From Bacteroidaceae bacterium (GTDB lineage: Bacteria > Bacteroidota > Bacteroidia > Bacteroidales > Bacteroidaceae), in contig JAFROT010000041.1 in NCBI GenBank assembly GCA_017429525.1, positions 1-45,201 on the forward strand: a DNA stretch of 45,201 bases, written 5' to 3'. The position numbers were made by a program, and so were the translations under genes. The notes below the pieces were generated by a model. That model searched no databases, was not told the DNA's origin, and saw only the letters and a list, made by a program, of their open reading frames with translations. Positions 27,900 through 45,196 of this stretch are shown one piece after another. The stretch's first letter is position 1, and every line of letters begins with the position of its first letter.

Positions 27900-27949
27900 T
27901 AGATATGTGAGTTTTGTGAGGTTAAAAAGTAAAGTCAGCCAGATGAAGA

Positions 27950-27959
27950 GGGTTAACCC
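27950..27959. promoter_or_regulatory. Perfect 10-bp palindrome upstream of the VirE-type gene
   Basis: GGGTTAACCC is fully palindromic and lies 51 bases before the VirE-type start. A possible operator; chance cannot be excluded at this length. Confidence 0.3.
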
Positions 27960-28070
27960 GTTCAATCTGATTCATTGCTAAGGTTGTGGGCAGTCGGCAG
28001 CAAACTTTAGATGACTGCTTAGGCCTCTCTTGAACATTCGCGTCGGGCTGAGCAGCCGTTTGTGTCGGCT

Positions 28071-29186: not shown

Positions 29187-29633
29187 TTATATGGTAATGA
29201 GCTTATCTGAAAAATCTGTTTTTAGGGGATATAAGCTGCTGGATGCTGTGTTGCCAACTATTAAGATTCGGTCGGCTTGTTCGCAGATGTAGCGGTTGCG
29301 GGCAATGGCTGTTGTGCGAGATTGGCGAGAGGATGAGGAGGTGGAGATGATGAGCAGGCGACCACTGTCGAGCAAAGGCTGCAGGTCTGCGGGAATGGTC
29401 TTGTACATGGCTCGTGCCAGCACGAGGATAATCGGTTGCTGCCCTTTGACCAAGAAGCGCCAGACATCCTTCTCTAATCGACTGCTGAACCCGCTGATAA
29501 CGCACTGTCCTTCGTCCCTCATCTTCACGGCCCAATCATAACACTTCAGCACCATATCCACAGGAATGGTGCTCGATGCTAAGAAAGCGGTCTTGGACAA
29601 CTTAAGCAGATCCTTATTGCCGAAGTAATCCAT
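29187..29633 (-). CDS. DprA/SMF-like Rossmann-fold protein in a restriction operon
   Basis: 148 residues. The pattern GQCVISGFSSRLEKDVWRFLVKGQQPIILVLARAMYKTIPADLQPLLDSGRLLIIS is that of the DprA/Smf Rossmann core (DprA typically has SGxAxGID...). This one is short, lacks the N-terminal SAM and C-terminal winged-helix domains of the competence protein, and has no GID motif. Its ATG lies 2 bases after the methyltransferase stop, so it belongs to that operon. DprA-like domains in defence loci are thought to bind DNA ends or nucleotides; a role in substrate recognition or nucleotide sensing is an inference. Confidence 0.65.
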   Translation of the reverse strand: MDYFGNKDLLKLSKTAFLASSTIPVDMVLKCYDWAVKMRDEGQCVISGFSSRLEKDVWRFLVKGQQPIILVLARAMYKTIPADLQPLLDSGRLLIISTSSSSRQSRTTAIARNRYICEQADRILIVGNTASSSLYPLKTDFSDKLITI

Positions 29634-29635
29634 AT

Positions 29636-32600
29636 CTAATCAAGGTGGAAGATGATTTTCCAGGCTGTCTTTCCTTTCGGGTTGATACCTGACCTAAAAG
29701 AAATCTTGGTTACCGCCTTCACAAGTGTTTTGTCGTCGCAGACCAACTTGATGGAAGGGATAGCCTTGGCTGTGTATGGGCAATGATCGTTAGAGAGTTT
29801 GATTCTTCCGTTTTCCATCACCAGTACTTGCCTGGCGAATTCTTCATCGTCAAGGTATCGCTTAATAGTCGTTTTCTCACCGCTGCTGATTTTCTCCAGC
29901 GTTTCGTGGCGAACCGTCATAGTAAGCGTGTTGTCTTTTGACGCAGGTTCTTGCTTCTGAAGCCTCTGCTGAGGTTTTTGCTGAGGTTTCGCTTGCTGGG
30001 GCTTTTGAGGCAGAGGGGTAGATTCACGTTCCTCGTTCAACTCATCACCCATGCGGTATTTGATATCATAGTTGATGATGAAGTCGAGCTCTTCTTCCGT
30101 GAAGCCATAGTGCGTGGCAAGGGCTTTGTCAATCTCGTCGATGATGGGTTTGGACTTTGCTGGTAAATATTGTGCAAATGTTACATCGCCAGTTCTATAA
30201 ACAGCATCAACCATCTCTGCATTATCCTGCATTTCTTGCATTAGAACATCACATAAAGAAATTAATTTCTTCTTTAATTGTCCATTGATATTTTCATATT
30301 CAATTGGAAAGTCTTTTAAATCACTCGGGTTATTTGTTCTTGCGTCAGAGTGCATTACATAATACCAAAAATATAGTGAACTATTAAGAACGGAAGTAAA
30401 CACCTTTAATTGTTCTATTGTGTCAAAATAGAGATGTGTTTCACGGGATGATGAGCTCTTTACCCCATTTAAGAAAAACAGAGGTTTGAACGTAGACATA
30501 AACTTCCAATATCGTCCGCCACTGTTTTTATAGTAGAAAACATTCTCACTATTTCTAACAGAATAATAGCCAATATTCTTTGATATATCATTTAGAGACT
30601 TTAGCATATCACATTCTGCAGAACAGCAAATCTTAGGAAATATATCTGACCGACAGACCTCCTTACTATTAAAATATGATACATTTTGGAATAACAGTTT
30701 TCTATTTTCCGATTTCCATTTATAATAATATGTAGTATATATAGTATTACAATTACTCTGATTACCTAATTGTGAGACAAAGATAGATAAATTTCTTTCT
30801 GCTCCCTCAAATAGTTTACTAGGTCTCTCAGCATAATTGCTAATATACGAATTGGCAGTCTTATTAATGAAGACCTTCATGAGCGATTCCATTCTTGCCG
30901 TACAAAAAGCACTTATAGGTATAATCATGCCAATATAGTTCCCATTTTTCATTATACAGAATGAACGTTCAATACAATATGAATACAAATTGCCAGAGTC
31001 TATTGTATTATAATTGTGGACAGTGTATATACTTCTAACTTTACTATACTCCACATACGGCGGATTGCCAATAATCACATCGAAGCCGCCATTGCCATAG
31101 ATGATGTCGTAGAACTCGGCGAGCCAGTGGAATGGCTGGTGAGTGCGCTTCCATTTGTCATAGTCCATGCCTGGGGCGGTGGCGATGTGGAGATTGTGAT
31201 TCAGCAGTTCATTAAGCTTTGCAAGGCGGTCTTTCAGTTGCGCCTTGGCGTGCTTGAATGTTTCCAAATCGGCGTCCTGCTCCAACTGTACTTTGCGGAA
31301 AGTGTCGTAAGCTGATGAAACAATGTCTATCTCATTATAGACTTTACTCTCAAACTCCTCACGGGCGAACATATCCATATACTTCACACCTTCTTCCATC
31401 TCCTTCTCTGTAGCATAACCCACCAGCGTGTTGCCACAACGGATATTGAAATCCACGTCGGGCAATGGTTCCAAGCCGAGATTCTGGTCACGAGGATTGA
31501 CATCTACCACAGCCACCATCTTCAGGAACAGGCGCAGTTTGGCTATCTCGGTTGCCTCCACCATGATATCCACGCCATAGAGGTTGCGCAGGATAATGCT
31601 CTTGTAGATGAAGTAGCGGATATTGGAGCGATATTTTACATTCAGTTCTCTCAGTTCTTCCTCGAAGAGTTTGGGATTCTGTGCATTCCAGTCCTGCATA
31701 CGGGTGATGCACACCTCATAGAGTGGCTCCAGAATATTGAGGGCTGCAAATAGGAATGCACCAGAGCCGCAGGTGGGGTCGAGGATGCTTACATGCTGCA
31801 ATGCTGAATAGAAATGCTTCACTAAAAGATGATCATCAGTATTCAGCAACACATCGTAAGTAAACTGACGGATGTCTAGATTATAAGTGATGAAGTCGTT
31901 GACCTCTGTAATCTCGCCCTTCACGATTTTCTGGCGGATACTATCGTAGCGTTGCAACCGCTCTACCGTCTCTCGCCATATCTCTGTAGGCAGGTTCCAA
32001 GGCTCAGGAGTGCGCTCGTTCCAACGGCTGCGACGTTCCAGCAAGTTGGGCTTAGTGGTGTCGATACCCTCAGCGATGTAGTCAGGTATAGGCGTCTCGT
32101 GCCCATGCTTTACTGCATCATAGATATAGGTGTCGCCACTCTCCTTCAGGAATTGCCAAATGCTGCCGTTCGTCTTAAAGGCATTGGCAGTTGTCTTCTT
32201 TGTGGCATCAAGCAGGAAGGGCACAATCGTGTTGCGACCGATGTACTCTGTAATGTCCTCTTTAGTATAGTAGGCCCCCATCTGGGCACGGTCGTTGATA
32301 TACTGCTCGAAGATGTAACCCAGCACGTCTGGGTTGATGTCGCGACCAGTGGCCGTCAGACGGTCGTCAAGGTGCCAGTGCCAGTTGTCGAAGAAGGCAA
32401 ACAGGCTCACGAAGGCTTCATCTGCAATGTCGATGTCGGGATAGTTCTTTTCCAGTTCGTGTTCATCGAACATCCCCCCGTTCAGATAAGGTATGCGACC
32501 GTACTTCTGCAGGAAGTCGCGTTCGTGGCGAGGAGAGTTGAGGCCATCGTGGAAGAGTGAGCGTAGGAATCCCTTATAGAAGGTATAGAACTTGCCACTA

Positions 32601-33298
32601 CGTTGTTGTACCAACGTAAGTTTATCACGCAGATAGTTGACGTTCAAATCGAGAAAGCCTTTCTTCTGAATGAAGTAACAGAACATCAGGCGATTAAGCA
32701 TCACCGAGGTGTACCATTGCTTATTCTGATTATTCTTCGGCTCGATGTTATCGTCTATACCTGTGATGAATTGGGCAAAGCGGGTATGTTCCTTGCGAAA
32801 GCCTTTATAGAAGTCATTGGTTATCTTCTCAGAGTTGATGATGAATGTTCCCTGCACGCGCTCCTTCACATCCATGATGGTGGTCCGCTCATCGAGGCCG
32901 AAAGTGAGGTCGTCAACTTTCTCGAAAAGAAAACCTGCTCGCTCAGCCGTCTCATACTCTACCAATACGAGGTCTCGCTTCTCCACCTTCTTCACAGGCA
33001 CCACCCAAAGATGGTGCTGCGACTTAGGTAAATGGTAGATGCAAATGTAGTCATTGGCCTGTCGGCGAAGGCGGGTGTCTATTTTCTTGCATAGCGAGGA
33101 CGTGGGAATCTCTGCCTGCTGACATGTGAGGACTTGGAATCCGCTGCGTTCGGCAATGAGCTGGAAGGTATAAGTGATGCCCTCGATGAGGAGGTCAAAG
33201 GACTTCTGTCCGTGAGGGTTGTTCCATCCCATTTCGCGGATGAAGAGTTCACGGAAGTTGGATTCTGCAATATGCTCTGTGAAGGTTCGCTTGTTCAT
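29636..33298 (-). CDS. Eco57I-type N6-adenine DNA methyltransferase of an ATP-dependent restriction system
   Basis: 1220 residues. N-terminal region (1-330) of unknown role, then the class I MTase core: DPTCGSGAFLFAALNILEPLYE (about 505, SAM motif I), LYGVDIMVEATEIAKLRLFL, and catalytic motif IV IIGNPPYVEY (about 742). The following 300 residues, the expected target-recognition region, are encoded by strikingly AT-rich DNA (about 30180-31060). After that come a KPQQ-rich linker (about 1105-1130) and a final domain of about 80 residues resembling ASCH/PUA folds (TVRHETLEKISSGEKTTIKR). It methylates adenine to mark host DNA and, with the PLD-SNF2 gene upstream, makes a restriction module. Size and partner recall DrmMI of class 1 DISARM, but drmA, drmB and drmC are absent. 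Confidence 0.85.
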   Translation of the reverse strand: MNKRTFTEHIAESNFRELFIREMGWNNPHGQKSFDLLIEGITYTFQLIAERSGFQVLTCQQAEIPTSSLCKKIDTRLRRQANDYICIYHLPKSQHHLWVVPVKKVEKRDLVLVEYETAERAGFLFEKVDDLTFGLDERTTIMDVKERVQGTFIINSEKITNDFYKGFRKEHTRFAQFITGIDDNIEPKNNQNKQWYTSVMLNRLMFCYFIQKKGFLDLNVNYLRDKLTLVQQRSGKFYTFYKGFLRSLFHDGLNSPRHERDFLQKYGRIPYLNGGMFDEHELEKNYPDIDIADEAFVSLFAFFDNWHWHLDDRLTATGRDINPDVLGYIFEQYINDRAQMGAYYTKEDITEYIGRNTIVPFLLDATKKTTANAFKTNGSIWQFLKESGDTYIYDAVKHGHETPIPDYIAEGIDTTKPNLLERRSRWNERTPEPWNLPTEIWRETVERLQRYDSIRQKIVKGEITEVNDFITYNLDIRQFTYDVLLNTDDHLLVKHFYSALQHVSILDPTCGSGAFLFAALNILEPLYEVCITRMQDWNAQNPKLFEEELRELNVKYRSNIRYFIYKSIILRNLYGVDIMVEATEIAKLRLFLKMVAVVDVNPRDQNLGLEPLPDVDFNIRCGNTLVGYATEKEMEEGVKYMDMFAREEFESKVYNEIDIVSSAYDTFRKVQLEQDADLETFKHAKAQLKDRLAKLNELLNHNLHIATAPGMDYDKWKRTHQPFHWLAEFYDIIYGNGGFDVIIGNPPYVEYSKVRSIYTVHNYNTIDSGNLYSYCIERSFCIMKNGNYIGMIIPISAFCTARMESLMKVFINKTANSYISNYAERPSKLFEGAERNLSIFVSQLGNQSNCNTIYTTYYYKWKSENRKLLFQNVSYFNSKEVCRSDIFPKICCSAECDMLKSLNDISKNIGYYSVRNSENVFYYKNSGGRYWKFMSTFKPLFFLNGVKSSSSRETHLYFDTIEQLKVFTSVLNSSLYFWYYVMHSDARTNNPSDLKDFPIEYENINGQLKKKLISLCDVLMQEMQDNAEMVDAVYRTGDVTFAQYLPAKSKPIIDEIDKALATHYGFTEEELDFIINYDIKYRMGDELNEERESTPLPQKPQQAKPQQKPQQRLQKQEPASKDNTLTMTVRHETLEKISSGEKTTIKRYLDDEEFARQVLVMENGRIKLSNDHCPYTAKAIPSIKLVCDDKTLVKAVTKISFRSGINPKGKTAWKIIFHLD

Positions 33299-33331: not shown

Positions 33332-35338
33332 TTAATTCGCTCTCAGTCCCATGGAACAAATGATAGTGGAATCTTTGTGCTCGGCATGATCATGGTCTAT
33401 TCGGCAGAGGGTGCCATTCTTGTACATCTCCAGCACCGTATCTACAATATCATCGTTGGTGCTGACACGCAGCAGACGTCCAAGAATGACCTTTGTGCTC
33501 TCCACGAACTGGAAGTTGTAGATGTCGTCAATGGCTAATTTGAGCAACTGACGCTTCTCCTCCGTGAAGAAGAGGTCCAAGGGTCGTTCGTAGTAGTTCT
33601 GCAGCAGTTCAATGATACGATAGCGCGTGCTGAAGCGGTTGCCGAGAATGCCGCTGACGTTGGTGTTCTCGTTCTTCGTGTTCTCTACCGCTTTCTCCAC
33701 GAGGTCGAAGTGATTGTCAAGAGGTTCTTGCGCAGGCTCGTCAGCAGAACAGGCCAATGCCTGAAGGATTTTCTTCTGCGACTGGCTGATGACCTCACCT
33801 TTGGAGTTGAACCATGTTAAAAGGTCGTAGTCGTTGTGGGTCTTGATGTAGGTGACTACTCCGTCATGGAGCACATCGGAGGCTTTTCTTGTAGAATAAA
33901 TAACATCGGGTAGTTCGGGGATAATCTGTTTCAGGCGAGGGTTGGCGTCGGTGGCGTTCTTCCAAATCTGGTAAGCGTAGGAAGCCAAGTCGACATCGCT
34001 GTCGTCCTCGTCGTCGTCGAGCACACCACTCTTCTCGTTGTACATGTCGGTGAGGTTTTTGGCATTGCCCTCGAAGAACACCTCATCGCTGCCCACTATG
34101 CTGGCATTCTCGTTGATGCGGTCGTTGAGCCGTTGGCGCAGACGGATGATGTTCTCCACCTGGTCGGCAGGGAAGAATGAGTAGCAGAAAATCTGTTCTG
34201 CTTCCTGGCCGATACGGTCCACACGTCCTGCGCGCTGGATTAATCGGATGATAGCCCAGGGGAGGTCATAGTTGACGATGACATGACTGTCCTGTAGGTT
34301 CTGACCTTCGGAGAGAACATCGGTGGCCACTAAGATGCGCAGCTCGTTGGACGCTGAGACCTCAGCTTTGTTGGACAGCGGAGAGAAATGCTCGACAATT
34401 GAAGTTGGATTGGAGCTTGCCCCGGTGGCGCGACCGATTTGTTGGAAACCGCGCCTCCGCAATTGGCGATAGACGTAGTTAGCTGTGTCGGAGTATTGGG
34501 TGAAGATAAGAACCTTCTCGTTGCCGTGCGTCTTTGTCAGTAAATCCTGCAGTTCATTGAGTTTCTGGTCGGTCGTGGGATTCCACTTGCCACAGAGCTC
34601 TATCATCTTAATCAGACGTTCGCAGTCCTGTTTCAGATGTGTTTTCAGCGAACGTCTGAAATAGGTGGAATCCAACCAGTCTACATTGTTCTTGCCGCTG
34701 AGGATGTTGTAGTATTCCCGAGCCTTGGCCATATAGATTTTCATATCGGTAGGAATTTCTATCAACCCGTCGCCGCTCATGCGGTCTTCTTCGTCGTTGT
34801 CATGGTCGAAGATGTCGTTGATGTCTTCATCCTCGATGTACGTATCGGGCAGTTCATTCTCATCGCCAATGGGCAATGGCAATTTGTTTTCGATGGCGTA
34901 CATGAAGACGGCATTGCGCAAGATATGGCGATAGAGCGTCAGCAGGAAGGAGAAGCCGCTGCTGTCTATGCGCTTGAAGAAGGTGCTCTTGCAGAACCCC
35001 ATCATCCGCTGTCCTGCACGGGAAAGGTTTTCCAGCAGACGCTTGTCGCGCTCTGAAGCCGAAGTGGTCTTTGACGTATCTTCGTAGGTCGAGAGCCCAT
35101 AGCGTGGCAGCCGCAGTTCTTCCATCATGCTGATCATCTCCTCGCTGTAGAGGCGGCTATATTGGTCGCCGTCAACAGTCTTGAACTTGATAGCCTTGGG
35201 TACTCGGTCGGGGAAATAGTTGCGTCGGCCATCGTTGAACTCCAGGTACTTGCGCCCGCTCTTCGGGTCGGTCTTGGCATAGTTCTCTTTGATGAAAGTG
35301 CGTGTGCGACGCACTAGAAACAGCTTCATCAATTCCAT
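33332..35338 (-). CDS. SNF2-type helicase, C-terminal half (after in-frame UGA)
   Basis: 668 residues if started at the internal Met (MELMKLFLVRRTRTFIKENYA). Contains the second RecA-like lobe, with helicase motif V-like VLSEGQNLQDSHVIVNYDLPW and motif VI LIQRAGRVDRIGQ, then a long charged C-terminal region. It is in the same frame as the upstream half, separated only by a TGA at 35417-35419. The 26 codons between (AFLQQHSEVFIRS..., DDW) fit the family. So this is the downstream part of one gene of about 1126 codons. It ends 34 bp before the methyltransferase start. Whether it is translated from an internal start is unknown; alone it lacks Walker A. Confidence 0.75.
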   Translation of the reverse strand: MELMKLFLVRRTRTFIKENYAKTDPKSGRKYLEFNDGRRNYFPDRVPKAIKFKTVDGDQYSRLYSEEMISMMEELRLPRYGLSTYEDTSKTTSASERDKRLLENLSRAGQRMMGFCKSTFFKRIDSSGFSFLLTLYRHILRNAVFMYAIENKLPLPIGDENELPDTYIEDEDINDIFDHDNDEEDRMSGDGLIEIPTDMKIYMAKAREYYNILSGKNNVDWLDSTYFRRSLKTHLKQDCERLIKMIELCGKWNPTTDQKLNELQDLLTKTHGNEKVLIFTQYSDTANYVYRQLRRRGFQQIGRATGASSNPTSIVEHFSPLSNKAEVSASNELRILVATDVLSEGQNLQDSHVIVNYDLPWAIIRLIQRAGRVDRIGQEAEQIFCYSFFPADQVENIIRLRQRLNDRINENASIVGSDEVFFEGNAKNLTDMYNEKSGVLDDDEDDSDVDLASYAYQIWKNATDANPRLKQIIPELPDVIYSTRKASDVLHDGVVTYIKTHNDYDLLTWFNSKGEVISQSQKKILQALACSADEPAQEPLDNHFDLVEKAVENTKNENTNVSGILGNRFSTRYRIIELLQNYYERPLDLFFTEEKRQLLKLAIDDIYNFQFVESTKVILGRLLRVSTNDDIVDTVLEMYKNGTLCRIDHDHAEHKDSTIICSMGLRAN

Positions 35339-35416
35339 CCAGTCGTCGGCATGAGAACTCTTCTCGAAAGCTTTAATACTGCGGATGAAGACTTCAGAAT
35401 GTTGTTGCAGGAAGGC

Positions 35417-35419
35417 TCA
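35417..35419 (-). other. In-frame UGA interrupting the PLD-SNF2 helicase gene
   Basis: The codons read ...GAG CTG GGC GGC GAT TGA GCC TTC CTG..., with continuous, family-like coding on both sides in the same frame. A single base change (for example from GGA, CGA or TGG) explains it. Other genes here end in TGA (lipoprotein at 3531, ATPase at 16260), so UGA is a real stop. No selenocysteine-type hairpin is evident. Confidence 0.75.
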
Positions 35420-36712
35420 ATCGCCGCCCAGCTCACGGATATACTCTTCCGGGCGGATTCCAAGGTCATCGTCCTCGCTGATGAACAGCTTGAGTTGTGC
35501 CGCCAAGTCGGAGAAGTCCTTGTTGTAGGGCGTTGCGGTGAGGAGCAGGACCTTGCAGTCCTGATGTTCTATGAGGTGCTTAATGTTTTGATAGCGCTTG
35601 CCTGAAGCATTGCGCAGGTTGTGGCTTTCATCTACGATAATCAAGCGATAGTAGCGTGCGCTGTCCACATCAATAGGCTTGGCCATTGACCAGATGTCGG
35701 CCTTCAGATCGTAGCGGCGGCGATACTTGTCCCACATATCCTGCAAGTTGGCAGGACAGATGATGAGCGTACTGCTGGCGAAGGTCATTTCATAAATCTT
35801 GGCGATGGCGCAGGCGGTGATGGTTTTGCCCAGCCCCACGACATCGCCGATCATCGCCCCACCACGTTTTTCGCTGTTCAGGTGGCGGGCTGCTATCTTG
35901 ACGGCCGTCTGCTGGAAATCAAAAAGCTCGCGCTGAAATTCTGGCGGCAGAGTGAATTCCTTGATGCCGCTGCGTGCGTCTGCGCTGAGATGGAAGGCTG
36001 TCTTCAGGTATATATAATAAGGTGGGATGATTTTTTCTCCAGCCCAACTGTTGTCAATGGCCTCTATAAGCTCTTTGGTGATGTCGATGCAGTAGTGGTC
36101 GTTCCAACGCTCCTCGAACCAGTCATAGAATTTCTGAGCGTCGTCGCTGTCACCAAATTCAGCATTTAACTCACCTTGTTTTGTAAGGCCAGAATAAGTG
36201 AGGTTGCTGCTGCCCATGATAGCCTGAATCTTGTTGAAATTATCATCGGGACGGTGGGCAAGATAGAGTTTTGCATGAAGAGGCTCTGCCACATAGAGTT
36301 TTACGCAGACCTTATTGTCCTTGAGTTGTGCAGACAGACGACGAAGTGTCCATTCATCCTGCTTAGTAGGGAGGCCAAGTAGCAGTTGGCGCTTGAAATC
36401 TCTTGCGATTTCCAATTTGCATTGGCTCACATAATTGCTGTCTGGCAGTTGCTGAGCAGAATACAACCGACGGACAAGCTCTTGGTCGGGTTGGTGCATG
36501 CCAATGAGCAGGCGACAATAACGGAGTTGCTGCTGATTACCTTCATAGACGTAGTCTCCCGGCAAGTCGTCGATCTGATTTACCACGAGGTTCCAACCAC
36601 GAAGATTGAAATAGCCGACACAGAAATCCACACGTTTCACACCTACATTCGTGATAATGTTCTGCAGGCCTTGTGTGAATTTAGTTTCAATGTTGTCGTA
36701 AATCCTGGACAT
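35417..36712 (-). CDS. PLD-nuclease/SNF2 helicase fusion, N-terminal part (truncated by UGA)
   Basis: 431 residues before the UGA. Residues 1-220 form a phospholipase-D-like nuclease domain with His146-x-Lys148 (LHAKLYL) and GSSN (167-170); the Asp of a full HKD motif is not obvious. From about 260 follows the first lobe of an SNF2/SF2 translocase: Q-motif region FDFQQTAV, Walker A GDVVGLGKT (289-297), Walker B IIVDESH (358-364) and motif III LLTATP (390-395). Together with 33332-35338 this is an ATP-driven DNA translocase with its own nuclease, functionally like the separate PLD nuclease and helicase of NgoAVII/CglI systems. As encoded, the protein stops before the second motor lobe and is probably inactive. 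An extensive structured leader precedes it. Confidence 0.8.
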   Translation of the reverse strand: MSRIYDNIETKFTQGLQNIITNVGVKRVDFCVGYFNLRGWNLVVNQIDDLPGDYVYEGNQQQLRYCRLLIGMHQPDQELVRRLYSAQQLPDSNYVSQCKLEIARDFKRQLLLGLPTKQDEWTLRRLSAQLKDNKVCVKLYVAEPLHAKLYLAHRPDDNFNKIQAIMGSSNLTYSGLTKQGELNAEFGDSDDAQKFYDWFEERWNDHYCIDITKELIEAIDNSWAGEKIIPPYYIYLKTAFHLSADARSGIKEFTLPPEFQRELFDFQQTAVKIAARHLNSEKRGGAMIGDVVGLGKTITACAIAKIYEMTFASSTLIICPANLQDMWDKYRRRYDLKADIWSMAKPIDVDSARYYRLIIVDESHNLRNASGKRYQNIKHLIEHQDCKVLLLTATPYNKDFSDLAAQLKLFISEDDDLGIRPEEYIRELGGD

Positions 36713-37046
36713 AGTTGCGATAACGTTTTAGCCAGCACACACGTTATCGGCAAGTTTATAGGCTTCTCAACATCGGGCCTCCAGACATGGAAATAGCGCA
36801 GGACGCCACTTATCCATATCTGGAGGCCCTAGGAAAGCCTATAACACCTGATAAGTCGTGCCTACGCTATCGCATAGGCATTAACTTGTCTTCTGGTGTT
36901 ATGTATATCAGTGAATTTCCTAGGTTCCCAGATATATACCAACAACATTAATGCTGTAAGTTTATGATTCCGATAAGATTTGAGGGCTCCTCCGCTGAGG
37001 TTTCCTGCGGCTCACATCTGAACCGCTTCGTGCCCTTTCGGGCACA
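36713..37046 (-). ncRNA. Highly structured noncoding segment, candidate leader RNA or independent ncRNA
   Basis: About 330 bases with no gene but many long inverted repeats (plus-strand coordinates). CGATAACGT 36718/36741 (9 bp, ends 5 bases before the helicase ATG). TTATAGGCTT 36757/36835 (10 bp). 36775-36790 with 36814-36829 (16 positions, one G.T). TAACACC 36842/36895, GATAAGT 36850/36884 and TGCCTA 36859/36875 nested as one 20-bp hairpin. CCTAGGAAA 36828/36916 and ATATCTGG 36816/36928 (17 bp in two parts). GTGCCC-GGGCAC 37030-37045 with a GAAA loop on the minus strand. The 36816-36836 arm is shared by two incompatible pairings. A TATCTTTG promoter precedes it on the minus strand, so a structured 5' leader of the defence operon is likeliest. 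It matches no RNA family I know. Confidence 0.6.
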
Positions 37047-37078
37047 AAGATAATGATTTTTTTGTGAGGTGTTGCAAG
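37045..37078 (-). promoter_or_regulatory. Promoter of the defence operon/structured RNA: TTG, 22-bp spacer, TATCTTTG
   Basis: The minus strand reads TATCTTTG at 37052-37045, with TTGC about 22 bases upstream. It would start RNA near 37039, just at the GAAA-capped hairpin, about 326 bases before the helicase ATG. Confidence 0.6.
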
Positions 37079-37160
37079 AAAAGAGATAAAAAGATGGGGT
37101 GGAAGGTGAAAAATGATTTGTTGCGGTCGGTTTGTTACAGATTATTCTGATGTAAGTGTC

Positions 37161-37463
37161 TCAGATAGGCCTCGGTGATGATTGAGGACATTTCATCGGG
37201 AAATCACATAAGAACTGTAGCTTGAAATCGTTTGACCAGCTACTGTTATTGCCGACTTCCTTGAAATCGCTCATCAAGGTTTTGAGGTCGTCCTCTGGCA
37301 TGGGATAGAGCCAGGTGTTCCTTATCCACATCCCGAGCGAGAAGTGGAGGAGGGCGCTGTCGCCTGCAGCGGCAATCTCTTGCTTGTCGCTGGCGCTGAG
37401 ATGCTTGTCGAGGAGGGCGAAGCATTCGTCTTTCGACATGGGGTAGGGGATGTCCTTTTCCAT
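37161..37463 (-). CDS. DUF6794 protein, frameshifted near the C-terminus
   Basis: 100 residues as read from the Met at 37463. The core (MEKDIPYPMSKDECFALLDKHLSASDKQEI, then LLHFSLGMWIRNTWLYP) matches the DUF6794 family, small proteins of unknown function. The last ten residues (MKCPQSSPRPI) are foreign. Shifting frame at TTTCCC (about 37200) gives PDEMSSIITEAYLRHLHQNNL ending at 37135, and the PD..S.II...L pattern is the family's usual end. So a one-base deletion (or sequencing error) has broken the gene. Start chosen because a TATCTTTG promoter lies at 37496-37503, making the upstream Met at 37643 untranscribed. Confidence 0.75.
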   Translation of the reverse strand: MEKDIPYPMSKDECFALLDKHLSASDKQEIAAAGDSALLHFSLGMWIRNTWLYPMPEDDLKTLMSDFKEVGNNSSWSNDFKLQFLCDFPMKCPQSSPRPI

Positions 37464-38072: not shown

Positions 38073-38200
38073 GCTTGCCGAAGGACACTTGAAGACATCT
38101 AACAAGATCTAAAACAAAATCAGTTTTGAACGATAACAGGTATTGCGCTTTGCGCTTTTGCTTGACAACTAAAGATAAACAATTGCTAGAAATAAAAACT

Positions 38201-41200
38201 ATGAAGAAGAAACTGTTCAGTATCCTTGTATTGTGGCTGACGATAGCAGCTACGGCGCAGTCGCATGTCCTATTCTCCTTTGTGAATGACGAGGGGGCTG
38301 CGACCAGCATCGCCAATGAGATAAGTGCGACCAGCATCGCCAATGAGATGAGTGCGGCCAGCGTCGCCAATGAGGTAGCACCCGATGAGGTGGAAGCCGA
38401 TGAGGTAAAACTTCGTGACGGCTCGTTGGTCAAACGGCAACGCATGCCGAAACGGGCGCCGACGGAAGACTACACGTACACCTATAAGGGCGTGAAGTAC
38501 ACCTACATCACCGAGAACAACTACACGCGGTTCTTCAACACCTCGGTTCACAAACCGAGCGACTACGGCTGGTACACCGACGCCGAGGGCTGGTATGTGA
38601 ACGCCGAGAAGGCCTACATCACTGCCGCCAGCATCGATGCCGACAACTTCCCGTCGAGCGGTGAGGTGTATATCCTCAACGACCTGGTGGGCTTCTTTAA
38701 GGATCACACCCACCTGGGCTGCATCGCCGACAACGCCTTCCGCTACATGTCGGGCGTGAGGCGCGTCTATTTCCAGGACTGCGGTGCCTTGAGCTATACG
38801 GCCAACAGCGACTTCTACTTCTTCATCGGCGACTGCGCGTTTGCCAACTGCGAGAACCTGGAGGAGGTGAACCTGATGCAGTGGACCACCAGCGGCGACA
38901 ACCACTGGCAGGCACTGCCCCCAACGGCAGTGAAGCGCATCTGGGGTTCGATGCTCGACAACTCGCCCAAGGCGTGGCTGCGCGTGGGCACCAGCGTCTA
39001 TCAGCAATACCTCGGCAGCCAGACATGGGTGCAGGTTCGCAACCGCATCACCACCTTCGAGCATTCATCGGACGACATCACGGTGAACGGCGCCGTCTAC
39101 AGCTTCCTGAAGGCCGAGGACGGCAGTGCCCTCTCGAACGCCGATGACCAGCACGAGGAGATCATGAAGACGCTGCGCCTGTGGAACGCCGACTACCAGA
39201 ATTTCAACGCCGCCTCGCTGCTCAGCGACAAGAGCCGCACCCAGGACAACGCCAACCTGTGGTACACCACGGTGAAGGGCGTCGACAACGACTACCTGAA
39301 GAAGAATGACGGCGTGCTACGCATCTACAACGACCCGGGTTCGTACTACAACTACAAGACCATCGCCATCCGTCGCGGGGCCTTCGAGAACTGCAGCGAC
39401 CTGAAGGCCGTGGAGTTCTGGCAGACCAACGGTCGCAGCAGTAACTCGTACAGCGAGCCGAAGCTGGTCATCGAGAACGGCGCCTTCAAGAACTGCAAGA
39501 ACCTGAAGGAGATTCGCTTGTTCTACAAGGTGGAGGATGGTGAAGACCGCTGGCAGGTGCTCGGTCCGACTGACATCATCCCCGGCAACAACATCTTCGG
39601 TCTGCCTCCGATGGACGAAGTGATGGCCATGGACACGGAAGACAAACAGACAGCGTGTGCCCTGCCCGACGACTTCCGCATTCTCGTCTCTCCCGACCGC
39701 TATTCGGAGTTCATCGTCGACCCCAACTGGTCCCCCTACGCCAACTTCATCAAGTCTGCTGACTATATGCCCACCGCAAAGGCCGACATCGTCAAGAACG
39801 GACTCACCTACGGCTATGTGGGTGGCACGGATGGAATCCTCTCGACGGATCAGGTGGTGACGCAGTCCTACTCGCTGTGGAGCATTCCCACTACCGTCGC
39901 CGAGGTGGCGTCGATTATCTATTCCTTCTATAGCATCTATCAAGCTCTGAAAGCAGCCTCTGTCGCCGTCGAGGGATTGGAAGAGTTCTCAGATGATGCC
40001 ATCGTGCAGGTGGTGGAAAAGACAGTGGCCAGCTCCAGTGACGATGTAGCTGGAAATGTCTTTTATAATGCGAAGGATTTTGGAATAGCCGACAAATTGC
40101 ACAAAGATGTCCTGTTCATGAAGCAACTATCGAACGAGATGCTCAGTGAAACAGGCGAAGTCACTGCCTATGAAATGGGCGTATTCTATGGCAAGAATTT
40201 GAAGCAATTAGGTCTTGGCGAAGAGATGATTGAAAGATTTGCTAATTTAGGAATGTGCAATGACAATGGCCTCATCATAATGAAAGGAGAAGAATTATTC
40301 GCAGCCTTTTGTAGTGATCGTCCAATACGAATGGCCATGAAGGATATGGCTTTTTATTTCAAGTGGATTTGCGATCCTAGCAAGGTGGCTCCGGCAGCGA
40401 TTCTCAAAGAGAGAAAGGAAGAACTCATTGAAGGTATTATTCTCAACAGAGTTTCGGGAAATATCATAAACACATCGACAGGTCATTCGCTCTTCAGTAG
40501 CAGGGATGCGGCGTCTGTAGCAGTGAGGGACGCTATCATGGGTACCATCGGCAACTCAACACTTATTTCCGGCGTGCTGGGTAGCGGCATGGCCACAGCG
40601 AAGACACTGCAGGATGGTTTCAACATGGCTATGCTGAAGGATGGCATGAAAAATAATATCATGTCGAATATTCATGCTGTGAGCACGCATGCCAGTAACA
40701 TGGTGATCATCACACCGCACAAAAACCTCATCTACCATACCTATCTCAAAAGTGCACCTGATGATATCGAGAATGCCGTGATCTACACGGGTGTGTCGAA
40801 GGACACGCGCACCACCACGTGGCTTCCCCAGGTGTTCAAGAACAAGAAACAGCTGAAGACCATCAGGTTCCACGACAATAGCGACCGCAACAGCCACAAC
40901 ATGTCGGGCAACCTCATCTTCATTCCCGACTCAGCCTTCGTCGGGTGCGACGCTTTGGAGACCCTCGACTTGCGTATGATGACCGATGACAATGGAGAGA
41001 GAGCCATGGGCCCGGAGGACTTCGTGCTCTGCGGCGACGACATCTTCGCCGGTCTCGATTCCACAAAGTTCCATATCATCATCCCCATCGAGCGACGGCT
41101 TGACTTCCTGCTCAGTGACAGTTGGCGACAGCACAAGCGCTTCTTCGTTTATCAAGAAGTGGAGGAGAAGGTCAACTTCACCGAGTTTGGCGTGAAGTAT

Positions 41201-44200
41201 GCCTTTAGCTATCAGAATGCCAACCAGTACGTGGAGAAGCAGCTCGGACACACCATCGAGCACCTGCACGCCATCGGCCCCGACGACGACTACATCAAGG
41301 ACAACAACGGCGCCCTGGGCTTCTTCAACGACATCGGCTCCTACAACAACTACAAGCTCGACTACGCCCGCAAGAATGCCTTCCGCAAGAACCAGAACGT
41401 GAAGAGTGTCTCGTTCTGGGACGTGGCCGGCTGGCTGTGGACGGGCGACGCCTACACCGATCTGCAGATGACGCTGCAGGACTCGTGCTTCGCTGAATGT
41501 CCGAACCTTGAGTATGTCGATATGCTCTACCTGCGCACCGACGGCTCGAACATCGCCGAACCCCTCACTCCGCGAATGCTGCAACTGGGCAACGGCGTGT
41601 TCGACCAGTCGCCGAAGGTACGCTTCAAGATGACCGACCGTCAGACGGAGTGGTTCGCCGCCGACTCCGCCTGGGTGAAATATCAGGACCGCTTCCTGCC
41701 CGCGCTCTTCCTACCCGCCGACCCCGTGGTGGTGAGCAAGCTGAGCGACCTGAAATACCGCACGGACGTGGCCCGTCCGTGGTACGACAATAACGCCTCG
41801 AAGTGGGGCGACTGGCTCGACATCACAAGGGTGACGTCGAACAACTACCTCAACGGCAAGTTCGCGGGCACCGACCTGCGCTCGTTCCCCGACTTCAAGC
41901 GTTTCGAACTGATAGGACTCGACTATGTGGGCGGCTCTTGGTTCGTCAACTGTACGAACCTCAGCGCTATCGAGCTGCCTTCGACCATCAAGACCATCGG
42001 CGGCTACGCTTTCCAGAACTGCTCGTCGCTGAAGGAAATCACTATCCCTGCCGCCGTCGAGAAGATTGACGAGGGGGCTTTCTTCAATAGTGGACTGAAG
42101 ACTGTGCGTTGCGAAGGCGTCAAGCCTCCCACCTTGGGCAGCTTTGGCCTACATCCCCTCAACTTCGACGGGTTCGTCATCTACGTGCCTGCCGAGGCTG
42201 TGGATGCCTACAAGAAGGCTTGGCCCAACCATGCCCAGTACATCAGGAGCAATGCGGATGACCGCAAGCTCACCGAGGTGGATGTCGATAAGCCCGGCAA
42301 GCTGGCTGAGAAGCTGGGACTGACGACGATTATGTCCGGCGACCGTTTGCGCAACGTCGGTGGAGCCTACTGGAAGTACGACTCGCTGACCGTCCGCGGC
42401 CACCTCAACGGCCTCGACGTCGGCGTGCTGCGCCACCTGATGGGCGCCGACGCGTGGGACAGCGATCCTACCGACGGACGCCTACGTTATTTAGACCTTC
42501 ACAATGCCCACTTCGACCAGGACACGAAATACTCCTACAACCTCTACGGCGTCGACGAGTACCTCGAGAAGGCCAACTGGGTAGGCGAATACATGTTCCA
42601 GAACTGCACGGCACTGGAGACGCTGATTCTGCCGGAGTCCGTGACCGAGATTGGCGAGAACGCCTTCGAGAGAGCCACAAACCTGAAGCATCTCTTCGTG
42701 GGTGAGCGTTTAGAGAAGTACACACGCGACCTGATACAAGACATCCCCGGGGGCTTGGATGAACTGGTGTTGATGACCGACTCTTTTGCCACCAGCGAGA
42801 GCGAAGACCCGTGGGAAGGCCCCATCGCCATGGTCTATACGAAGAAGTCGCGGCTGGGCGACTACATGAGCGACCCGGCACTGACCAACCGCGCACAGGG
42901 CATCGCCGCCCCCTTCGAGGACGAAGAGGTGATGCACATCCTGGCGGTGCGTCGCTGCTACTTCCCCTCGCAGTACCTCAACGTGGAGAGCACTAAGAAT
43001 CCGTTCGGCAGTTATCTCGACGGCGACGGCTACTTCTTCTATCGCGACAAGGATCTGAAGACCTTCGATGAGTTCCGACTCTTCAGTAACGTCCGCGAGC
43101 TCGACTACGACTTCCAGAACTGCTCGGGCCTGGAGCGCATCACGCTGCCCGCCTCGATAGAGCACATCGGCTTCAATGCCTTCACCGGCTGCGCGAAGTT
43201 AGCCTCCATCCACATCAGCGCCGACTCCGTGCCCGTGCTGGATCGCGATGCCTTCCGCGACCTGCCCGCCGACTTCCAGATCATCGTGCCGAAGACCCAT
43301 GTGAAGCGCTACCGCGAGCAATGGGCTCAGTATGCAGACCACGTCGTAGGCGAGGACGAGGACTTCCGCAGCGACATCATCGAGGTGACGCTGACCGAGC
43401 CCAACACGCTGGCCCAGCATCTGGGACTGCAATATACTTACGAAGCATTCGAAGAAACGTGGTACGAGAAGCCTCTGAAGAAGTACCGTGTCACCTCCGT
43501 CACGGGCGACTACTCCCATATCCGTGGCTTGAAGGTCAACGGACCCATCTCGAGTGCCGACTTCATGGTGATGCGCTTCCTGGCAGGTTTCGACATCGTC
43601 AAGGACCGTCGCAACGCTACGTCTCTTGGCAACGCACGCAATTATCTGGCGCAGCTGGAGTACATCGACCTCTACGATGCCGACATCGTCTGCACCGACT
43701 TCAGTTATCCTAACTCCGACGGAGAGGTGGAGACTAAGGCCTTCTGCCGCTGCTACGCGCTGAAGACGCTCATCCTGCCGCGCACCGCCACCTATGTCGC
43801 TGAACGTGCTTTCCAGGAGTGCGAGAATCTGCAGACGCTGGTCATCGGCGACGAGTGCGAGAAATTCCTCTGGAGCTCGCTCGACGACTGCGCCTCGATG
43901 ACCCGCATGTACATCCTCTCGAAGAAGAAGATGGAGATGACCGACGAGAACTGGCTGCGTCGCAACCTGAGCAACAACTACAACCCGACGTTCGATGCCG
44001 TCTATGTGCGTCCGTCGCTCTATCAGGACTACCTCGCCGACGAGGCCTACGTGGGCCCCGACCATCGCACCAACAGCGTCTCGACGGGAGCCTTCAAGGA
44101 CGACGAGTCGTTCGCCGCCTTCGCCGCTCACGCTGCTGCCACTCAGGACGACCTGCGGCAGATAGGCGACATCAGCGGCTGGTTCCGCAATCATACCGGT

Positions 44201-45196
44201 GTCATCGACTTCGATGCCCTCCAATATACCAGCATCGACTCGTTGCGCACCGCCGACGTAGCGCCGCTCACACAGCTGCGCAACGTCACCCTGCCCGCCA
44301 CCGTCAAGGGTGTGGGCAAGGATGCCTTCACGCATGCCACCCACCTGCGCTATGTCGATATGAGCAAGTGTGCTGACTACGCGCCGACGCTCGTCGCTGA
44401 AGGTGGCGTCCGCTCGCTCGGCATCGGCGCCAACACGCTGGCCTACGTGCCCTCCTCTTATGGCGCGACCGCCGACGTGAACGTGGCCGTCAGCGACGGC
44501 GCCAGCGGCTTCAAGGCGCAGACCTTCCGTCTGGTCGACGGTCTGGATTACTGCGTGCCCTTCGCCGTCACGGCAGAGAATGTAGAGAACACGCGTACGC
44601 TCGTTCAGAGCGCCGTGCCCTACACCGTCTGTCTGCCCTACGCCCTCGACATCCCCGTCGGCGCAAAGGTCTACCGCCTCTCGGGCCGCGACACGGACGA
44701 GCTGATCTTCACCCAGCACATGGGACGCATGCAGCCCATGGAGCCCTACCTGGTATGGGCGGAGCAGAGCGATGCCCCGCTCTCCACCACGAGCGCTACG
44801 CTGCCTGCCAGCACCGACGGTCAGACCTTCGGCCGTCAGCAGTCGTCGGTGGGCTACACCCTGCGCGGCACGCTCACCGCTATCGGCAATGCCGAGGCTG
44901 TGGAGTTGGGCGCCTACGTGCTGAACGACGACGCGAAGTGGCATCCTGTACTCTCGGACACTGATGAGCACAGCGCCGTCACAATCCCCGCCTTCCGCTG
45001 CTACCTGCTGCAGAGCCGTCAGGGCGGCACCCGCGCGGCCATCGGCATGGCGCTGGAGGGCGTCGACGGCATCGAACAGCTGCGCACCATCGACAGCGAC
45101 GGCACCGAGCGCGTCTACGACCTCAGCGGCCGCAGAGTAAGCGAACACGCCAAGGGCGTTGTCATCAAGAACGGTAAGAAAGTCATCAAGAAATAA
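38201..45196 (+). CDS. BspA-like leucine-rich-repeat surface protein
   Basis: 2331 residues from the Met at 38201. Signal peptide (MKKKLFSILVLWLTIAATA), three 9-residue repeats (TSIANE(I/M)SA, about 34-60), then many LRR_5 repeats of the Treponema/BspA type (SIELPSTIKTIGGYAFQNCSSLKEITIP-like units), which form an elongated adhesive scaffold. Residues about 565-835 (39880-40700) interrupt the repeats with a helix-rich, AT-richer segment without LRRs. Two similar segments (around GVDNDYLKKNDGVLRIYNDPGSYYNYK and GPDDDYIKDNNGALGFFNDIGSYNNYK) show internal duplication. The C-terminus (VYDLSGRRVSEHAKGVVIKNGKKVIKK) is the Prevotella surface-anchoring or secretion tail. Likely a surface adhesin; its ligand is unknown. 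The in-frame Met at 38126 would precede the signal peptide and was rejected. Confidence 0.9.
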   Translation: MKKKLFSILVLWLTIAATAQSHVLFSFVNDEGAATSIANEISATSIANEMSAASVANEVAPDEVEADEVKLRDGSLVKRQRMPKRAPTEDYTYTYKGVKYTYITENNYTRFFNTSVHKPSDYGWYTDAEGWYVNAEKAYITAASIDADNFPSSGEVYILNDLVGFFKDHTHLGCIADNAFRYMSGVRRVYFQDCGALSYTANSDFYFFIGDCAFANCENLEEVNLMQWTTSGDNHWQALPPTAVKRIWGSMLDNSPKAWLRVGTSVYQQYLGSQTWVQVRNRITTFEHSSDDITVNGAVYSFLKAEDGSALSNADDQHEEIMKTLRLWNADYQNFNAASLLSDKSRTQDNANLWYTTVKGVDNDYLKKNDGVLRIYNDPGSYYNYKTIAIRRGAFENCSDLKAVEFWQTNGRSSNSYSEPKLVIENGAFKNCKNLKEIRLFYKVEDGEDRWQVLGPTDIIPGNNIFGLPPMDEVMAMDTEDKQTACALPDDFRILVSPDRYSEFIVDPNWSPYANFIKSADYMPTAKADIVKNGLTYGYVGGTDGILSTDQVVTQSYSLWSIPTTVAEVASIIYSFYSIYQALKAASVAVEGLEEFSDDAIVQVVEKTVASSSDDVAGNVFYNAKDFGIADKLHKDVLFMKQLSNEMLSETGEVTAYEMGVFYGKNLKQLGLGEEMIERFANLGMCNDNGLIIMKGEELFAAFCSDRPIRMAMKDMAFYFKWICDPSKVAPAAILKERKEELIEGIILNRVSGNIINTSTGHSLFSSRDAASVAVRDAIMGTIGNSTLISGVLGSGMATAKTLQDGFNMAMLKDGMKNNIMSNIHAVSTHASNMVIITPHKNLIYHTYLKSAPDDIENAVIYTGVSKDTRTTTWLPQVFKNKKQLKTIRFHDNSDRNSHNMSGNLIFIPDSAFVGCDALETLDLRMMTDDNGERAMGPEDFVLCGDDIFAGLDSTKFHIIIPIERRLDFLLSDSWRQHKRFFVYQEVEEKVNFTEFGVKYAFSYQNANQYVEKQLGHTIEHLHAIGPDDDYIKDNNGALGFFNDIGSYNNYKLDYARKNAFRKNQNVKSVSFWDVAGWLWTGDAYTDLQMTLQDSCFAECPNLEYVDMLYLRTDGSNIAEPLTPRMLQLGNGVFDQSPKVRFKMTDRQTEWFAADSAWVKYQDRFLPALFLPADPVVVSKLSDLKYRTDVARPWYDNNASKWGDWLDITRVTSNNYLNGKFAGTDLRSFPDFKRFELIGLDYVGGSWFVNCTNLSAIELPSTIKTIGGYAFQNCSSLKEITIPAAVEKIDEGAFFNSGLKTVRCEGVKPPTLGSFGLHPLNFDGFVIYVPAEAVDAYKKAWPNHAQYIRSNADDRKLTEVDVDKPGKLAEKLGLTTIMSGDRLRNVGGAYWKYDSLTVRGHLNGLDVGVLRHLMGADAWDSDPTDGRLRYLDLHNAHFDQDTKYSYNLYGVDEYLEKANWVGEYMFQNCTALETLILPESVTEIGENAFERATNLKHLFVGERLEKYTRDLIQDIPGGLDELVLMTDSFATSESEDPWEGPIAMVYTKKSRLGDYMSDPALTNRAQGIAAPFEDEEVMHILAVRRCYFPSQYLNVESTKNPFGSYLDGDGYFFYRDKDLKTFDEFRLFSNVRELDYDFQNCSGLERITLPASIEHIGFNAFTGCAKLASIHISADSVPVLDRDAFRDLPADFQIIVPKTHVKRYREQWAQYADHVVGEDEDFRSDIIEVTLTEPNTLAQHLGLQYTYEAFEETWYEKPLKKYRVTSVTGDYSHIRGLKVNGPISSADFMVMRFLAGFDIVKDRRNATSLGNARNYLAQLEYIDLYDADIVCTDFSYPNSDGEVETKAFCRCYALKTLILPRTATYVAERAFQECENLQTLVIGDECEKFLWSSLDDCASMTRMYILSKKKMEMTDENWLRRNLSNNYNPTFDAVYVRPSLYQDYLADEAYVGPDHRTNSVSTGAFKDDESFAAFAAHAAATQDDLRQIGDISGWFRNHTGVIDFDALQYTSIDSLRTADVAPLTQLRNVTLPATVKGVGKDAFTHATHLRYVDMSKCADYAPTLVAEGGVRSLGIGANTLAYVPSSYGATADVNVAVSDGASGFKAQTFRLVDGLDYCVPFAVTAENVENTRTLVQSAVPYTVCLPYALDIPVGAKVYRLSGRDTDELIFTQHMGRMQPMEPYLVWAEQSDAPLSTTSATLPASTDGQTFGRQQSSVGYTLRGTLTAIGNAEAVELGAYVLNDDAKWHPVLSDTDEHSAVTIPAFRCYLLQSRQGGTRAAIGMALEGVDGIEQLRTIDSDGTERVYDLSGRRVSEHAKGVVIKNGKKVIKK
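38300..38380 (+). repeat. 27-bp coding tandem repeat, three units
   Basis: Units at 38300, 38327 and 38354 encode (A)(T/A)S(I/V)ANE-type nonapeptides just after the BspA-like signal peptide. The first two are identical but for one or two bases. Copy number could vary by slippage without changing frame. Confidence 0.8.

Follow-up and report, generated by a model that had tools for sequence, protein, structure and literature searches.

A structured leader RNA family in front of a Bacteroidaceae restriction operon, probably a switch-like cis-acting control module

The expression of restriction-modification (R-M) systems is known to be controlled by DNA-binding proteins and by promoter inversion, and invertible (phase-variable) promoters occur in Bacteroidota. 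Controller (C/XRE) proteins are known from R-M systems (e.g. PMC8053105), and RptR, a DNA-binding repressor of type I R-M islands, is described in PMC12255303 as binding a TAGCTA palindrome. With regard to RNA, Bacteroidales-1, Bacteroides-1, Flavo-1 and 6S-flavo are structured RNA motifs of Bacteroidetes that are contained in Rfam (PMC2864571), and for Flavobacterium psychrophilum PMC9723704 describes 64 structured 5' regions, a part of which has no Rfam match.

Herein, a stretch of 45,201 nucleotides from a Bacteroidaceae bacterium (positions 1 to 45,201 of contig JAFROT010000041.1, assembly GCA_017429525.1), which is termed the window, was analysed with regard to a gene-free leader of 334 nt on its minus strand (36713-37046), extending from a TATCTTTG motif to the ATG at 36712 of a restriction operon. 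Judged from sequence, the leader is probably a structured 5' region transcribed from the TATCTTTG promoter that exerts switch-like cis control over this operon, and the best reading is that of an interchangeable cis-acting control module rather than a part of a ribonucleoprotein. The motif (37045-37052, minus strand), which was recognised by its sequence and by the position of the motif in relatives, is presumably a -7 promoter motif of the Bacteroidota type, and transcription would start just downstream of it.

The place of the RNA in front of the restriction operon is filled by an XRE gene or its remnant in 12 of 49 relatives, so that a role similar to that of the C/XRE controllers is likely, although the latter are proteins and the module of the window is an RNA leader. 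RptR resembles the module in being a dedicated regulator tied to R-M loci, but it is a protein and not an RNA. Four relatives of the operon carry an arrangement that resembles an invertible promoter in the RNA's place, whereas the RNA leader possesses one promoter motif in a fixed orientation, and an unsystematic inspection of its loci showed no arrangement of this type. With riboswitches and attenuators the RNA shares a promoter-proximal structured leader, mutually exclusive helices and, in most relatives, a hairpin with a U-rich stretch; in contrast to them, the genes downstream of the RNA family share no pathway, no Rfam class matches, and no terminator can be recognised in the copy of the window. 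The four Rfam motifs named above belong to the same phylum, and none of them matches the RNA in the window or in 58 further loci.

The leader RNA is not described in the titles and abstract beginnings listed by searches of the open literature, nor in passages of PMC2864571, PMC7366714, PMC8040213, PMC9723704 and PMC10994844, and the term counts in PMC8632094 are all zero. Members of the family could be among the F. psychrophilum 5' regions of PMC9723704; the family appears to be uncatalogued in Rfam 15, and it may be described elsewhere in print. The locus deserves attention in that one and the same operon can stand behind any of three modules, namely the RNA leader, an XRE gene and an inverted-repeat promoter arrangement, and in that hundreds of genomes in the window's family carry the RNA, many of them more than once. 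With the helices, coordinates and lists of genes below, the RNA can readily be mapped, probed and tested, and, if it is a switch, its trigger becomes directly testable.

Fold, strand and covariation of the leader

The minimum free energy (MFE) of the minus-strand leader amounts to -141.6 kcal/mol as against -91.8 +/- 5.2 for shuffled sequences (z -9.59; 0 of 100 shuffles as low), which, together with the covariation in relatives, bears out the dense RNA-like structure that the initial annotation had noticed in the gap 36713-37046. A stable fold is likewise predicted for the plus strand (z -6.85), as is expected of complementary DNA, and the strand therefore had to be settled by comparison with relatives. 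The Rfam scan proposed in the annotation found no family for the leader, Rfam 15 giving no match in the window at the gathering score. At E up to 10, the best match of the leader was mir-1265 (E 0.011, 24.7 bits, the gathering score being 79), which is one long hairpin resembling another. Three scans of the 58 further loci against Rfam yielded five matches altogether, none of which overlaps the leader RNA. A match to the Rfam family Acido-Lenti-1 was observed at L022:2673-2717 (minus strand), in a locus with a partial leader copy.

Conservation was assessed in three alignments. A1, a MAFFT alignment of 35 cores made without structure, was scored with three helices picked after the relatives had been viewed, which favours the structure; 96.5% of its cells are paired (81.4% when shuffled) at a covariation score of 0.541 (0.257 when shuffled), and the signal collapses on sliding the 3' partners by 1-3 columns. 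The covariance model R1 was constructed from A1, with the window as one of its 35 sequences. Since its source leaders were reached via the PLD-SNF2 protein or via DNA similarity to the window leader, the top-scoring R1 matches lean to R-M loci, and for this reason separate counts in six genomes and a second model, R2, were employed. A2 comprises 97 members (94 distinct rows) matched by R1 at E 1e-8 among 100 loci, L061, L064 and L071 having matched at weaker scores only and standing outside it, and A3 comprises 39 members drawn from weaker matches within the family and from further families of the class, no member of A3 having been identified before an R-M gene. Both were fitted to the structure-bearing R1, which favours the structure, and the paired cells amount to 97.9% in A2 and 94.4% in A3, with changes on both sides in 22 and 23 of 24 pairs and scores of 0.726 (0.274 shuffled) and 0.741 (0.242 shuffled), respectively. 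R2, built solely from A3, detects the window core with 111.4 bits (E 1.1e-19), so that the R-M-side members and the others look like one family. Compensatory changes exceed both the shuffled and the slid controls, and the covariation among homologous leaders, which had been set as a test beforehand, is clearly present in A1, A2 and A3; by these comparisons, the leader core is a member of a large family of predicted structured RNAs without an Rfam match.

Individual helices were assessed by a swap test, which compares how favourably, in terms of energy, a segment pairs with the partner from its own sequence and with the partners of other members. The test set consisted of 80 non-redundant members of the 97 (under 85% identity), a filter beyond which kinship remains; the segments are crude, and the U-run is misplaced in a few members. 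Four negative-control pairs gave z values of +1.8, +0.8, +3.2 and -0.8.

The strand is indicated by the hairpin P5b, where U.G pairs at one position are found in 62 of the 94 rows of A2 and G.U pairs at another in 55. These would be A.C mismatches on the other strand, and the minus strand is therefore the RNA. The covariation and the strand-specific G.U pairs uphold the earlier suggestion that selection acts on RNA rather than only on DNA, and they also bear on the reading of the leader as an insertion-element end or another DNA-level repeat. Several copies per genome, inverted repeats and the occurrence beside unrelated genes are in line with such a repeat, which is nevertheless scarcely credible, as the U.G and G.U pairs hold on one strand only, compensatory changes are present, the place after the promoter and before the ORF is fixed, and the leader has no match in plasmid and phage DNA. 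A DNA repeat without RNA strand bias was rejected on the strand-specific pairs and the fixed leader position. The annotation had named the recurrence of the sequence next to unrelated genes as an insertion-element end as a refutation of its proposal; the family is indeed found beside such genes, but as a promoter-proximal leader.

Position and parts of the leader

Of the 80 non-redundant relatives, 73 carry TAnnTTTG at a distance of 40-140 nt before the core, compared with 4 on the reverse strand. An ORF of at least 100 aa on the strand of the RNA begins no more than 110 nt behind the core in 88 of 95 members of A2 and in 27 of 39 members of A3. In the divergent direction, where counting began 90 nt upstream of the core, the figures are 7 of 94 and 9 of 39. 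Within A2, the ATG follows the core at a median distance of 61 nt. The RNA is hence promoter-proximal, on the same strand as the gene and soon followed by an ORF, as a cis-regulatory leader would be.

All parts described here are on the minus strand. The leader starts with a 5' domain (36960-37045) of three hairpins (37030-37045, 37007-37026 and 36989-37000), the first two of which are in the MFE fold, and its start and end covary in relatives (z -8.5, n=66). It is followed by the conserved RNA core (36779-36959; R1, 161.1 bits; R2, 111.4 bits), which in relatives contains near-invariant bases, some of them unpaired. Helix P3 (36816-36935) is formed by strand 1 (36928-36935) and strand 2 (36816-36823), with both-side changes in 8 of 8 pairs of A2 and a swap-test z of -27.7. 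Helix P4 (36828-36924), in which CCUAGGA at 36918-36924 pairs with UCCUAGG at 36828-36834, is paired in 100% of cells over the 94 distinct rows and displays both-side changes in 7 of 7 pairs. The inner arm P5/P6 (36841-36902; P5L with P5R, z -24.9) carries P5b as its apical hairpin (36872-36880 with 36859-36867), 98.2% paired with many U.G and G.U pairs. Further out, a pseudoknot (36758-36842) joins 36835-36842 to 36758-36765 (P5Rend with post, z -9.5), and an outer closing helix (36744-36945) joins 36939-36945 to 36744-36750 (z -10.5 and -8.9).

Two alternative hairpins use strands of P3. PA (36903-36939) pairs 36931-36939 with 36903-36909 (S1 with PAr, z -9.7) and excludes P3 because strand 1 is common to both. 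The long hairpin S2-S3 (36775-36829) pairs 36814-36829 with 36775-36790 and is in the MFE fold; strand 2 is common to it and P3, and the two are mutually exclusive. This is the G.U-tolerant pairing that had been pointed out at the outset, and it is both present in the window and backed in relatives (swap z -12.6). PA, P3 and S2-S3 thus share strands, and each of them passes the swap test. A GC-rich and then U-rich stretch, which resembles a terminator in most relatives and in the window reads as a degenerate UAUUU, is situated at 36791-36809. The arm of the hairpin before the U-run gives z -9.1 with its own 5' side and z -9.8 with P5b.

Cis-regulation, two states and attenuation are what we infer from this architecture, since the mutually exclusive pairings are all conserved. 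The core of about 200 nt, closed by the long-range helix 36939-36945/36744-36750 and bearing the inner arm and the pseudoknot, would come into being stepwise during transcription, strand 1 pairing locally as PA at first and then with strand 2 as P3, stacked on P4, whereupon strand 3 could later capture strand 2 to give S2-S3. Such a two-state switch would set the amount of transcript that is elongated or translated. The mutually exclusive helices could also in part belong to one pseudoknotted fold instead of two states.

With respect to the output step, 71 of 78 relatives have a U-rich stretch (at least 6 T in 9 nt) separating strand 2 from strand 3, and the hairpin at this stretch has -8.7 kcal/mol in relatives compared with -5.7 when shuffled. 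A terminator-like site was not found within 36600-37200 in the window, and a classical attenuator is therefore not claimed for its copy; among nine leaders that come from further families of the class (L213-L221), most have a broken U-rich stretch, at least 5 unbroken T being present in 3 of the 9. Attenuation, taken together with these observations, cannot be the whole answer. In relatives having the hairpin and the U-run, transcription attenuation would be the most likely route, and copies with a degenerate U-run, the window included, would be controlled by another. In known riboswitch classes the output step can differ between clades, and it may do so here.

The same U-rich stretch, along with a few members that stand alone, lends some colour to the reading that the element is chiefly a small RNA whose 3' end lies at the U-run, with incidental read-through into the gene. 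L227, L230, L234 and L239 have no same-strand ORF close behind the RNA, and members without a close ORF, including the 12 of 39 in A3 that fail the 110-nt test, would fit a free small RNA. This is quite improbable for the family as a whole, however, in view of the strong preference for a same-strand over a divergent ORF among strong members (88/95 vs 7/94) and of the conserved pseudoknot and outer helix, which reach beyond the U-run.

Several other elements were considered and set aside. The ATG-proximal hairpin at 36718-36749, which the annotation had singled out just before the start codon, does fold in the window copy, but its arms are not conserved as complementary (z -0.4, n=70), and it was rejected as a regulated element. 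Between the leader and the start of the coding region, too, the pairing signal is weak (z -1.4 and -2.2). A leader-peptide attenuator was likewise rejected, there being no conserved short ORF within the core, where ORFs of at least 8 codons are open in at most 26 of 80 members at any column.

Distribution and the genes behind the RNA

A DNA similarity search (E up to 0.01), in which many matches were short, detected the leader in 35 of the 399 genomes of the window's family, the genome of the window included. R1 at E up to 0.01 extends this to at least 309 of the 399; since six first-look candidates were scored per genome in the large searches, copies per genome are lower bounds. When 150 candidates were scored in each of 12 chosen genomes, still a subset, all 12 were matched with at least 2-19 copies each, and the window's own genome holds four matches with R1 (E up to 0.1) and five with R2 (E up to 0.01). 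Among 395 genomes drawn from the phylum, at least 40 are matched by R1 at E up to 0.001, comprising 3 members of the family, 1 further genome of the order, 34 further genomes of the class and 2 from outside the class.

The genes behind strong matches were counted in the 78 A2 loci found through the RNA, that is, without the 19 loci (window included) found through the PLD-SNF2 query; 77 of them have a downstream protein, and these proteins were grouped by BLAST clusters holding Pfam-matched members. Firm R-M proteins of unrelated families account for 62 of the 77, or 64 with L135 and L116. They include 15 SNF2-type helicases (PLDc_2 is matched at 1e-5 by six proteins in the set), 15 EcoRI-type methylases, 10 Eco57I/MmeI-type methylases, 9 HsdM/N6 methylases, an MmeI cluster of 5 (with the short L135, which is itself not matched by Pfam), 5 N6/N4 methylases, 3 D12 methylases, one HsdR-like protein and the L116 protein, a probable type IIG enzyme (DUF7149/DUF7814). 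The other 13 consist of three PAP2 and two LRR proteins, one each of acyltransferase, SPFH, DprA and TPR type, and lipoprotein-like and unknown proteins.

A separate count took all matches listed for six genomes, with 150 candidates scored in each, which gave 69 matches. Among those of at least 76 bits, 17 of 23 stand before R-M-type genes (18 with L135), the tally including L180, which has no Pfam match yet is 47-77% identical to the Eco57I-type cluster, and L174, which is just below its Pfam cut-off. Of the 46 weaker matches, 42 have an ORF in reach, and the scan of these revealed three R-M-type proteins (two N6/N4 methylases and one GmrSD), one PD-(D/E)XK domain and four LRR proteins, the remainder belonging to other or unknown families. 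It is accordingly the strong-scoring clade, within a broader family of leaders, that is associated with R-M genes. The proposal that the element is a riboregulator of the restriction genes therefore needs qualification: it survives as the best reading, but the RNA is not specific to PLD-SNF2 genes, and its weaker matches stand mostly at unrelated surface or hypothetical genes.

This breadth invites the alternative of an orphan riboswitch class, whose core would bind a metabolite or an ion and set the expression of many kinds of gene. The compact covarying core with its near-invariant bases, the many copies per genome (at least 2-19 in the 12 chosen genomes), the class-wide spread and the mutually exclusive helices are all in keeping with it. 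The absence of a common pathway among restriction genes, LRR surface proteins, PAP2, acyltransferase, SPFH and lipoprotein-like proteins, and the lack of a matching known Rfam class, nevertheless render this alternative rather doubtful.

Processive antitermination has precedents in EAR, put and LoaP. By analogy, the RNA might serve as a recruitment site for an RNA-binding protein or a NusG-type elongation factor and promote read-through of long or foreign operons. The promoter-proximal position in 73 of 80 relatives, before long restriction operons, and the one weak match (L212, 31.9 bits) that precedes a NusG-family gene agree with such a site, but some members have no operon close behind them, and we regard it as unlikely.

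Some neighbouring genes were observed in passing. The gene behind the weak match in L212 lies at 1012-1563 on the plus strand (Pfam NusG, E 1.8e-9). In L227, a reverse transcriptase of 319 aa (1599-2558, minus strand; RVT_1, E 6e-21) is encoded about 440 nt behind the RNA, with no closer ORF. In the window, an ORF of 2356 aa with BspA-type leucine-rich repeats occupies 38126-45196 on the plus strand, i.e. on the opposite strand beside the leader; members of the RNA family also precede LRR proteins.

The PLD-SNF2 operon and its exchangeable upstream modules

The operon behind the leader is encoded on the minus strand. Its first ORF (35417-36712, 431 aa) contains the PLD nuclease and the N-terminal part of an SNF2 helicase, and the C-terminal part of the same helicase (Helicase_C) forms a separate ORF of 668 aa at 33332-35338, both assigned by Pfam. 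They are followed by a type IIG restriction-methyltransferase of the Eco57I/MmeI-like kind (29636-33298; Pfam, and PADLOC REase_MTase_IIG with E 1.3e-263) and, at the end of the operon, by a small DprA/SLOG-like protein (29187-29633; PADLOC PsyrA, E 1.2e-10), whose Pfam match to DNA_processg_A is below the cut-off; the same weak match recurs at the operon end in L036. The helicase frame of the window (33332-36712) is interrupted, with a gap of 78 nt between the parts of 431 and 668 aa. In 37 of the 49 PLD-SNF2 relatives, a single ORF of 1119-1136 aa is present, a further relative has 910 aa, and eleven are short or cut off; a conserved two-subunit split was rejected since relatives have a single ORF, and the interruption represents either a decayed copy or an assembly error.

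The 49 PLD-SNF2 loci were gathered from genome contigs by protein similarity. Upstream of the operon, the RNA is present in 21 and an XRE-type ORF or its remnant in 12, while no locus has both and 16 have neither; two of the 12 XRE cases are remnants of 16 residues, and the four XRE ORFs that were tested all match HTH_3 in Pfam. A search of the 16 'neither' loci for inverted repeats found four with widely spaced arms and two with closely spaced repeats of a different kind (L050 and L055), the other ten having none. The four are L033 (1306-1494), L034 (7649-7836), L036 (7610-7880) and L048 (7630-7884), where arms of 17-24 nt, 96-100% complementary and 154-231 nt apart, enclose a promoter motif facing away from the operon, with a motif on each strand in L036. 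A tyrosine recombinase gene is located just upstream in L033 and L034.

In a protein tree of 40 rows (39 of the 49 loci plus the window, ten partial loci being omitted), the RNA label requires 5 changes, at least 4 of which are forced by well-supported branches. One clade of 22 unites 18 of the 21 RNA rows with four 'neither' rows, and another of 14 contains 7 of the 8 XRE rows together with six 'neither' rows and one RNA row; L033, L034, L036 and L048 all fall in the RNA-rich clade. Leaders at least 77% identical to that of the window stand before divergent PLD-SNF2 genes and HsdM genes, from which it follows that leaders and genes have been shuffled independently.

These exchanges bear directly on whether the RNA is a component of the defence machine, i.e. 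the guide or scaffold of a ribonucleoprotein, as the initial annotation had envisaged in considering a separate ncRNA component. A large structured RNA adjoining nuclease and helicase genes would be consistent with it. The RNA is missing, however, in 28 of the 49 PLD-SNF2 relatives, 12 of which have the XRE gene or remnant instead, and numerous unrelated enzymes, as well as surface proteins, are encoded behind the same RNA; an RNA required by the enzyme is hardly likely when its module is replaced by an XRE gene or an inverted-repeat promoter. The notion is therefore disfavoured and very improbable, and a component of the CRISPR, retron or omega-RNA kind was rejected, an obligate tie to one effector family not being observed.

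Returning to the reading of a switch-like cis-acting leader, a bolder extension, which we put forward only tentatively, would regard the family as an uncatalogued sensory class of leader RNA, spread class-wide and beyond, one clade of which became a plug-in RNA controller for operons of R-M and related defence systems that replaces C/XRE proteins or invertible promoters and couples the expression of defence to a signal shared by all copies in the cell. If this were true, the common signal might, for instance, be the entry of DNA, takeover by a phage or the state of growth.

Accessory genes are also present at these loci. One without a Pfam match is found inside the operon in L036 (14646-15311) and likewise within the operon in L048, and a gene which by eye is of the same kind follows the RNA in L004. 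Finally, the window encodes a protein with VapE-like and BT4734-like domains at 25737-27965 on the minus strand, which suggests a mobile element near the defence operon.
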